Shown: positions 16,945 through 29,309 of the stretch, piece after piece
Layout of the letters: every line of letters begins with the position of its first letter
How positions within the stretch are numbered: the stretch's first letter is position 1
Origin: Flagellimonas spongiicola
Lineage (GTDB): Bacteria > Bacteroidota > Bacteroidia > Flavobacteriales > Flavobacteriaceae
Length of the DNA stretch: 64,000 nucleotides
Reading direction: 5' to 3'
NCBI RefSeq assembly: GCF_023502425.1
Contig: NZ_JAMFMA010000001.1
Location: 1,116,001 to 1,180,000, forward strand
The notes under the pieces: generated by a model
Databases searched by the model: none
What the model was told of the DNA's origin: nothing
Seen by the model: the letters and a program-made list of their open reading frames with translations, nothing else
Translations under genes and position numbers: made by a program

Positions 16945-17090
16945 ATCGACTAAAACACCATAAAACAGTACCTAACCACAACAATAAGGTACTTCACAAC
17001 AATAATTTCATTTACGGGAACACTGGTGGTACTTTTACCATGTAATAATTAAGAAAGTAAATTTTTTCATTTTCATATAGTGTTCTCGTA

Positions 17091-17124
17091 AAAGAGTCTT
17101 GACCCAAGTGGCAAGGCTCTTTTT
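17091..17124 (+). terminator. Rho-independent terminator
   Basis: An 11-bp stem with one G-T pair (17091-17101 with 17112-17122), a 10-base loop and a T run on the plus strand. It probably ends transcripts from the serine hydrolase gene and insulates the convergent menB. Confidence 0.75.
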
Positions 17125-17177
17125 AGTTTTAAGAACATTGCAATTGCCAGCCCGCTCGGACCTATTTTATCACCAAT

Positions 17178-27745: not shown

Positions 27746-27773
27746 AAAAGGGTCGCTCATTGCGACCCTTTTT
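27746..27773. terminator. Bidirectional terminator shared by rpoD and the micropeptide genes
   Basis: A perfect 9-bp GC-rich stem (27748-27756 with 27762-27770), extendable by two A-T pairs, with a 5-base loop. T runs follow on both strands (plus after 27770; minus after 27748), so it can end rpoD transcripts and those coming from the opposite side. Confidence 0.85.
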
Positions 27774-27796: not shown

Positions 27797-27898
27797 CTAT
27801 GGACGACTTAGTTGACTGATGTTGAAATCCGTCAACATTTGATTTAAATCCTGAATAAAACTCAAGTAAGCCGTATTTTCCTGGTTTTGATTTTTCAT
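27797..27898 (-). CDS. Micropeptide 1 of a tandem homologous pair (33 aa)
   Basis: A short open frame, ATG at 27896-27898, stop TAG at 27797-27799. The core reads AYLSFIQDLNQMLTD (residues 10-24). It aligns residue for residue with the core of the next peptide upstream, EYLAFLQELNEILS, sharing YL-F-Q-LN-L with conservative changes elsewhere, while many codons differ silently. It therefore looks like a selected protein. Amphipathic helix, no signal peptide. It lies 25 bases after the micropeptide 2 stop and 23 bases before the shared terminator stem. Confidence 0.65.
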   Translation of the reverse strand: MKNQNQENTAYLSFIQDLNQMLTDFNISQLSRP

Positions 27899-27923
27899 GA
27901 ACTAAGGTTTTGGGGTGTTTGTT

Positions 27924-28022
27924 CTATAAATAATCCAACTCTGCGAGTTCGTTTACGCTCAATATTTCATTTAATTCTTGAAGAAATGCCAAATATTCTT
28001 CACCGTAGGTATCGTATAACAT
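27924..28022 (-). CDS. Micropeptide 2 of a tandem homologous pair (32 aa)
   Basis: A short open frame, ATG at 28020-28022, stop TAG at 27924-27926. It is acidic, with core EYLAFLQELNEILS (residues 9-22) homologous to micropeptide 1, and it ends AELDYL. Both are preceded by C-rich/A-rich leaders containing CCCCAAA about 20 bases before the start. It lies 127 bases downstream of the gene at 28150-28503 on the same strand. The 425-base gap between rpoD and that gene is filled by the terminator, these two frames and this spacer; I see nothing else in it. Confidence 0.65.
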   Translation of the reverse strand: MLYDTYGEEYLAFLQELNEILSVNELAELDYL

Positions 28023-28149
28023 AATTATTAAGTGGTTTTTGTTTGGGGTTATACTTATAACGTGAACTTACTGTAAACATTATGAGTCTACAATATTTTG
28101 TGGTAAAACAGGTGATTTTAGTGGTGTAAAATGTTAAAGAAAAAAGGGC

Positions 28150-28503
28150 CTAAACATCAAAGATATCCAAGGGTACCCCAAAATCCATATCCAAATCTGG
28201 ATCCAGTTTGGATGGCTCAATATTGAACTCGTCATAAATAAAACAGAGATCCATGGGAAGCAGTGTTTTTTCTGAAGGATCCGTAATTCCCAGCTTTTCC
28301 AGGAGTGCATTCCTTACTTCAAAGGCTTTGCCACTGATCATATGATTGGAGTGGGTTTCCAATTCTTCCAATAACGCCAGGTCTTTTTTATCTCCAATTT
28401 CCAGCATCTGATCAATCAATATCAGTTTGCATTCCAAATCGGAGGCATGCTCCATTAAGGGGTAAAAAATACTCTGATGATATTCAGGAAGGTTTTTAAC
28501 CAT
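28150..28503 (-). CDS. Conserved protein of unknown function, helical, acidic (117 aa)
   Basis: I do not recognise this 117-residue protein. It is soluble and mostly helical in its first 80 residues (MEHASDLECKLILIDQM, DLALLEELETHSN), with an acidic, proline-containing tail rich in Asp (PSKLDPDLDMDFG). It has no signal peptide or membrane segment. It starts 8 bases after the stop of the 265-residue gene, with which it almost certainly forms an operon. HEAT-like repeat character is possible but not firm. Confidence 0.65.
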   Translation of the reverse strand: MVKNLPEYHQSIFYPLMEHASDLECKLILIDQMLEIGDKKDLALLEELETHSNHMISGKAFEVRNALLEKLGITDPSEKTLLPMDLCFIYDEFNIEPSKLDPDLDMDFGVPLDIFDV

Positions 28504-28511
28504 CTTATAAT

Positions 28512-29309
28512 TTACATATTTCTCAGGACATCTATTTCAAAATCAACCAATTCCTCCACTTTTGGGTACTCCACTAGGAATTGTTGATATAGAAAATTCA
28601 AGTATTTAATGTCATTGTCTGTCTTGCAAACGGTACTCATTTGTTCCGTGATTTCAAGAAGACTTACCGTTTTCATCATTTTCAGGCAAGCTTGGATTTT
28701 TTGACAAGCAAAATCGACACCTCGGAAATTCTCAGTTTGAAGATGAACCTTGATTTTGCCAATGAATTCTAGAATATTCTGTTTGTAAACCCGCACCAAT
28801 TCTTCCAATAGCTCCATTTGCCCCATACATTCATCTAAAACAGGTCTTAGATTTACTTTTTGGGTTGTCAATAGAGATTCTAAATTTTGTTCTACGGTCG
28901 TAGTACATGCTATGCCCTGCTCTACTTCTTCTGTAGGGGCATTATCCTTTAATCGCTTGGAGACTTTATACAAGCTCATTACTATTTCACGTTGACGTTG
29001 GTCCAAATTGGTTTTGTCCAGCATTGCGATTAGCGCCAAGAGCTGTGTGATATTATTTTCTTTTTCCAGCTGTTTATCTTCAATTGCGCTGGAAGCTGCT
29101 TTAATTCCCACTTGATCGTAGATCACTTCCAACTGATGCATTTCTGGTACGCCAAAGACTTTGTCCTCCAATCCATTTTTAAAAACATCAAATGACTTTT
29201 TAAGCTTTCCAGCCTCTTCGGCCCCCAATTCATCGTAGGAAAAACTACTCAATCCAATTTCCAATTTTTCTAAATAGGTCAATAATTCTCTAGTTCCCAA
29301 ACTATCCAA
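28512..29309 (-). CDS. Unknown all-helical cytoplasmic protein (265 aa)
   Basis: No family recognised. A 265-residue, Leu/Glu/Lys-rich protein predicted to be almost entirely helical, with likely coiled-coil stretches (YLEKLEIGLSSF, CMGQMELLEELVRVYKQN). It has no signal peptide, membrane helix or catalytic motif that I can see. First gene of a minus-strand group with the 117-residue protein and, further on, the two micropeptides. The helical design suggests a binding or scaffold role, which is inference. Confidence 0.65.
   Translation of the reverse strand: MDSLGTRELLTYLEKLEIGLSSFSYDELGAEEAGKLKKSFDVFKNGLEDKVFGVPEMHQLEVIYDQVGIKAASSAIEDKQLEKENNITQLLALIAMLDKTNLDQRQREIVMSLYKVSKRLKDNAPTEEVEQGIACTTTVEQNLESLLTTQKVNLRPVLDECMGQMELLEELVRVYKQNILEFIGKIKVHLQTENFRGVDFACQKIQACLKMMKTVSLLEITEQMSTVCKTDNDIKYLNFLYQQFLVEYPKVEELVDFEIDVLRNM

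Follow-up and report, generated by a model that had tools for sequence, protein, structure and literature searches.

A LytTR site, as described in PMC4847170, consists of two repeats, each 9-11 nt long and separated by 11-13 nt, with no common consensus. In the LRS of Streptococcus mutans, HdrRM and BrsRM, the 9-nt direct repeats lie mostly 12 bp apart and just upstream of the -35 element, and each system comprises a LytTR regulator and a transmembrane inhibitor, an arrangement that its description sets apart from two-component systems (PMC6193735). Small proteins are also described as inhibitors of two-component circuits, among them the 46-aa Sda, which acts on KinA/KinB in Bacillus, and MgrB, which acts on PhoQ (PMC8534201). 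For the promoters of Bacteroidetes, the consensus TTTG/TANNTTTG has been given (PMC6847099).

The locus described here, from Flagellimonas spongiicola, lies in a stretch of 64,000 nucleotides that was analysed as a whole (hereafter the window; positions are counted from its first letter). It holds two very short tandem frames beside rpoD, termed A and B. We compared this locus with its relatives and with the systems above.

Two tandem micropeptide genes

The sequence-only reading of the window had placed two homologous frames of 33 and 32 aa on the minus strand in the gap after rpoD, and both are present there (Table 1). Their cores, YLAFLQELNEIL and YLSFIQDLNQML, align without a gap as had been claimed, and a profile-profile comparison of the A family with the B family returned a probability of 94 and an E value of 9.7e-8 over 24 columns. 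The impression that they belong to no described family was also borne out, as searches of Pfam and NCBIfam gave no family for either peptide at E<=1. Against solved structures the best E value was 0.32, which is not believable, and a viral origin was rejected, no relative having been found among viral contigs. A literature search by title and abstract opening, covering few subscription journals, returned nothing on the A/B peptides or on the promoter set described below. Between B and the end of rpoD lies a perfect 11-bp inverted repeat (arms at 27746-27756 and 27762-27772), in keeping with the defined 3' end proposed earlier; this hairpin could terminate transcription on both strands.

Table 1. 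Features of the A-B locus, in window coordinates.
Feature	Position	Strand	Basis
Micropeptide A, 32 aa, MLYDTYGEEYLAFLQELNEILSVNELAELDYL	27924..28022, stop included	minus	frame and conservation
Micropeptide B, 33 aa, MKNQNQENTAYLSFIQDLNQMLTDFNISQLSRP, paralogue of A	27797..27898, stop included	minus	frame and profile comparison
Terminator-like hairpin, common to rpoD	27746..27772	.	sequence
First direct repeat, degenerate here (TACACCACT); TTYACMACA in relatives	28120..28128	minus	repeat scans
Second direct repeat, TTTACCACA, 21 bp downstream of the first	28099..28107	minus	repeat scans
-33 element, TTG	28091..28093	minus	scan and consensus as given in PMC6847099
-7 element, TAAGTTCA, 37 nt from the start of the second repeat	28063..28070	minus	scans
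5' leader of the predicted mRNA (approximate), containing CCCCAAA	28023..28058	minus	inferred transcription start

A at E<1e-11 together with B at E<1e-4 was found in 73 of 148 related genomes (the first set). Three of these belong to other genera, and the remaining 70 come from the 71 genomes of the window's own genus, which is Flagellimonas/Allomuricauda (Muricauda) according to named records. The single genome of the genus without A, G037, is 79% complete, and the remaining matches among the 148 (five genomes for A and 12 for B) were weak and were taken as chance. In all 73 loci A consists of 32 codons beginning with ATG, and 24 of its 32 residues are invariant despite 69 different nucleotide sequences; its identity of 84-100% is close to that of rpoD (89-100%). 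By the start rule of our script B varies from 30 to 37 aa, and the spacer between the two genes from 19 to 43 nt. A (70 genus loci, 1392 usable pairs) has a median dN/dS of 0.033 and B (59 genus loci, 949 pairs) one of 0.116, saturated pairs being dropped from both medians and, for B, the 11 of 70 genus loci in which it does not have 33 codons being left out. These medians support the earlier proposal of an old duplication kept under protein-level selection. Frameshifts or stops in relatives, and conservation at the RNA level only, had been named as observations that would speak against that proposal; there was no internal stop among the strong A and B matches of the 73 genomes, and the codon pattern is one of protein-level selection. 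A and B are real, strongly conserved genes.

Across the family, a joint A/B profile matched 79 of 397 genomes at E<=0.01, of which six matches were weak and 73 strong. Seventy of these 73 strong family genomes carry the tandem pair and three (G186, G206 and G416) carry A alone. A occurs in about 43 of the 237 sampled genera of the family. From the 67 further strong family genomes, 40 were fetched so that the locus could be read; in these other-genus loci A begins with MLYD in 40/40 and B is present in 37/40. Frames so short are hard to establish as genes by comparison alone; here, 113 loci were available. In the GTDB collection 242 stretches encode relatives of A, the best 80 of which include Croceitalea, Croceivirga, Arenibacter, Maribacter and Kriegella, while no believable homologue of A or B outside the family was found in 395 genomes of the order, many of which are from the same family.

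A promoter with LytTR-type repeats upstream of A

The promoter of A consists of TTYACMACA-N12-TTYACMACA at a fixed spacing from a Bacteroidetes promoter: upstream of A, TTTYACAAC is followed 21 bp on by TTTCACCACAATTTATTG, the TTG of which leads after 20 nt to a -7-like box. With up to two mismatches and within 200 nt upstream of A, the repeats were found in 70 of the 73 loci of the first set and in 37 of the 40 others, against 3/73 and 1/40 in the reversed control. The three loci without repeats among the 40 are those of the A-only genomes, and A is therefore not always under this control. Over the 113 loci, a -7-like box placed N20 after TTG or TTT gave 82 counts, with two at other spacings, and in 51/73 and 33/40 loci both TTG and the -7 box are exactly positioned. 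The promoter fits the TTTG/TANNTTTG consensus, except that its last letter is mostly A; the strict pattern TTG-N17-23-TANNTTTG with its final G was found upstream of A in only one of 113 loci, because most loci have TAnnTTTA.

The arrangement is that expected of a LytTR promoter. In the loci of relatives the repeats are 9 nt long and 12 nt apart, and the second repeat ends 5 nt before the TTG, just upstream of the -35/-33 element. In the window's own promoter the first repeat is degenerate, so that the composite pattern of repeats plus promoter is matched there with three mismatches.

The same switch elsewhere in the genome

In the genome of origin, the composite pattern (up to three mismatches) gave 15 matches and its reversed control none. 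It replaced a looser pattern of the repeats alone (up to two mismatches), which gave 29 sites against 25 in the reversed control. Of these loose sites 16/29 were intergenic, compared with 4/25 in the control (Fisher p 0.003). With the site of A excluded, 11 of the 16 intergenic sites have a -7-like box exactly 37 nt after the beginning of repeat 2, and none of the 12 within ORFs has one (10/15 versus 1/13 if L236, moved by hand from an opposite-strand ORF to the intergenic set, is left in place). Offsets other than 37 nt averaged 0.6 among the intergenic sites.

Besides A-B, the genes that follow composite sites encode a HisKA_2 kinase (two sites), a DUF4114 protein, a regulator made up of a receiver only, a 107-aa protein homologous to one that carries a T9SS sorting domain, an RmlB-like protein and further proteins of surface type; a 35-aa frame and sRNA-like transcripts also follow such sites. 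Labels without a Pfam assignment were given by eye. The CCCAAA motif of the A leader was considered as a further mark of the set and set aside, since it occurs in 4/15 leaders against 6/58 background leaders and is not clearly enriched. Two composite sites lie between the gene of a REC-LytTR response regulator and that of a TPR-TM-HisKA_2 kinase, whose membrane segment was assigned by eye. Judged from sequence, A-B is most likely a target of this REC-LytTR system.

Several other members of the set were noted. A composite-type promoter lies in the window at 16972-17037 on the plus strand, ahead of a predicted RNA at about 17043-17125 on the same strand, and a second copy is found in L463. This short, terminator-ended stretch has the core TTTTTTCATTTTCATATAGTGTTCTCGTAAA. 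Of 28 genomes, 12 have this core at their LytTR-regulator locus with at most one mismatch, and 14 have it there within eight mismatches; the terminator stem of the stretch varies, by eye, and the RNA had no match near the gathering score in Rfam. Pairing of its U-rich portion with ATGAAAAA start regions is conceivable. A 35-aa frame, MAPKLTRSSVEDNVQVYRNDFFTGIMLLIKKLFML, in L460 (C6:848143 of the same genome) may be a third micropeptide of the set; it is similar to a 35-aa frame in another genome of the genus (L227, G015) and has a hydrophobic C-terminus by eye. A further sRNA-like stretch with the same promoter type is represented by L464 (C6:879700 of the genome of origin), L208 and L216; no conserved frame was seen in it by eye, and in L464 a terminator-like hairpin follows about 100 nt after the -7 box. 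In L473/L474 (C7:110132 onward, same genome), a composite promoter is followed 23 nt past its predicted start site by the RmlB-like gene and then by RmlA-, RmlC- and RmlD-like genes, all named by eye.

Peptide structure and a proposed role

The earlier prediction of helical peptides agrees with AlphaFold models of modest confidence, in which A forms one helix (residues 2-31; pLDDT 77, pTM 0.41) and B two (residues 4-24 and 27-30; pLDDT 78, pTM 0.41). An amphipathic helix in A was not borne out, its hydrophobic moment being no higher than in shuffles (p 0.28 and 0.74 in the two stretches examined); in B the moment exceeds shuffles only over residues 8-25 (p 0.02), a longer stretch giving p 0.35. 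No signal peptide or membrane segment was seen by eye in either peptide, and both are thus likely to be cytosolic.

In the explanation that we propose, A and B would form a two-gene micropeptide operon with its own promoter. A single REC-LytTR response regulator, working with the TPR-TM-HisKA_2 kinase, would bind the repeats and activate A-B, and would also control surface, T9SS, polysaccharide and small-RNA-like genes. The peptides would be soluble alpha-helical modulators that pair mutually and/or bind a protein of the circuit, which is the least certain step; candidate targets are the kinase, the LytTR regulator or RNA polymerase. In this way they may tune the output of the circuit that makes them, a feedback proposed by analogy with the small-protein inhibitors of two-component systems. 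Taken whole, with an operon activated by the regulator and peptides that modulate the circuit, this is the explanation towards which we lean.

The main rival, which we think somewhat unlikely, makes A and B effectors, that is, end products of the LytTR programme such as surface, secretion or polysaccharide adaptors, with no feedback. Many of the other promoters of the set do precede surface, T9SS or polysaccharide genes (several labels by eye), and the extreme conservation of the peptides would suit binding to a conserved machine as well as binding to a regulator. However, the likely cytosolic location of both peptides argues against such a role, and regulators are not unusual in the set, which includes a kinase, a receiver-only protein and sRNA-like transcripts. 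The modulator explanation can also be put in a more specific form, which is speculative and, in its full detail, unlikely: A would be a peptide cofactor or brake of the very LytTR two-component system that switches on its gene, would have been duplicated to A:B in one lineage and, with the ultra-conserved sRNA of the same promoter type, would provide layered feedback over a surface/exopolysaccharide programme in marine Flavobacteriaceae. The proposed circuit lends itself to testing: its DNA switch is defined, a single regulator is the candidate, one genome offers 15 promoter matches, and there are candidate sRNAs. Whether a family of micropeptides takes part in controlling surface and polysaccharide genes in marine Bacteroidetes can likewise be put to the test.

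Co-occurrence of A and the candidate regulator

The regulator was sought in 159 family genomes, one per genus, with 17 regulator candidates scored in each. At E<=1e-60, a threshold of our own choice, it was found in 28, comprising all 25 A-positive genomes together with G159, G189 and G225, in which A was not detected. Repeat sites at up to one mismatch number 3-11 in each of the 25 A-positive genomes, whereas only G189 and G225 among the 134 A-negative genomes have three or more. In some genomes, G215, G233 and G279 among them, the promoter of A is itself one of the sites counted; with it excluded, G215 and G279 have two sites, and 11 of the 134 A-negative genomes have two or more. The co-occurrence supports functional coupling without proving it, and since the distribution is largely that of one clade, it may reflect one gain instead.

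Genes of one clade cannot be separated by co-occurrence, and the repeats might accordingly be bound by another transcription factor of the same clade. We regard this as improbable, given that, of the 27 genomes in which the end of the regulator gene was found (G189 being dropped), 25 have a repeat no more than 650 bp beyond it, the A-negative G159 and G225 among them, against 2/27 in the reversed control, and that the architecture of the site is LytTR-like. In G225 (L476, C1:264419 onward), where A is undetected, four repeat pairs at up to one mismatch lie between the regulator and kinase genes.

A tree of the regulator (27 rows, G189 left out as no regulator end was found) has long basal branches and a midpoint root that serves for drawing only. 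It places the A-only genomes G206 and G186 outside 23 A-B genomes, with supports of 95/84, 93/83 and 97/92. B looks like a later copy of A; the three genomes with A alone argue for this order, and the position of G206 and G186 in the tree fits it. A possible succession in the assembly of the circuit is the regulator first, A next and A-B last. A fusion or donor gene for A was also looked for, but the weak matches, which come from five genomes of the genus and fall within ORFs of 754-778 aa, were taken as chance; one such ORF, when followed, was TonB-dependent receptor-like by eye.

rpoD and the upstream genes

A regulatory link to the sigma factor had been suggested by the sequence-only reading, and in the first set rpoD does adjoin the pair, convergently, in 73/73 loci. 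Among the other-genus loci, however, it lies within the stretch read in only 35/40, being missing from L185 and L192, which carry B, and from the three A-only loci. Constant linkage to rpoD, which for a sigma-factor regulator would be a lead and not a strict definition, is therefore not seen, and the suggested link is not supported. L185 and L192 keep the repeat promoter, and the A-B locus has in its own promoter with the LytTR-type repeat a steadier feature than in its rpoD neighbour. That A and B regulate the neighbouring housekeeping sigma factor is in our view very improbable: frequent as the association is, five of 40 loci carry A, and two of them also B, with rpoD absent from the stretch read, the pair and rpoD are convergent throughout the first set, and 324 of the 397 family genomes have no strong A/B match, although a housekeeping sigma factor is required by all. 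Since their promoter switch is shared with cell-surface, polysaccharide and small-RNA genes, A and B would seem to belong to a sensing system and not to be partners of the sigma factor.

The two upstream genes, u117 and u265, had likewise been suggested as partners. In the first set they lie upstream in 68 of 73 loci and are missing from the three other-genus loci; two of the five loci without them are at contig edges. Elsewhere the upstream neighbour changes between loci and may be a YaiO-like, GDPD-like or kinase-like gene, the first two labels given by eye and the kinase domains of one neighbour assigned by Pfam. The partnership was therefore rejected.

The C-terminal ~100 aa of u265 (window 28150-29309, minus strand) match the C-terminal end of the PAS-HisKA-HATPase-REC kinase encoded upstream of A in L197 (34% identity, E 2e-11), and u265 is also similar to a 416-aa protein in L185; it is perhaps the remnant of a hybrid kinase. 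By eye, u117 is like the final part of a longer L165 protein.

The leader of A-B

A leader hairpin with a CCCAAA loop occurs in many other genera, the motif being present in 33/40 loci, and its mean stem is 4.8 bp against 2.2 in shuffles (L197-L199 dropped from this test and L126, L129 and L132 added). It is scarcely credible that an RNA element or sRNA accounts for the conserved region and that the frames in it are incidental, as this hairpin and its conserved loop might suggest, since the length, start codon and frame of A are constant in 113/113 loci read while third positions vary, and a search of Rfam gave no match near the gathering score.

Comparison with known systems

With YpdA/YpdB- and AgrA-type systems, as described in PMC4847170 and PMC4227749, the A-B locus shares a LytTR regulator and two direct repeats upstream of a promoter, the binding being a prediction here. 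It differs from them in organism and repeat sequence, and in its kinase, which is of the TPR-TM-HisKA_2 type. To our knowledge, no micropeptide pair is a target of either type of system.

The likeness to the LRS of PMC6193735 lies in a LytTR-family regulator, in 9-nt repeats 12 apart upstream of a promoter, in autoregulation, which is a prediction in the present case, and in a repeat sequence that is poorly conserved between systems. In contrast, the regulator here has a receiver domain and adjoins a HisKA_2 kinase, which places it outside the LRS definition, and the micropeptides, judged soluble by eye, have their genes elsewhere.

Among small-protein inhibitors, MgrB is a kinase modulator, while Sda, which is very short and helical, tunes a two-component circuit (PMC8534201), and with both the likeness is one of analogy only. 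MgrB is a membrane protein, whereas A and B have no membrane segment by eye, and unlike Sda, A and B are tandem paralogues.
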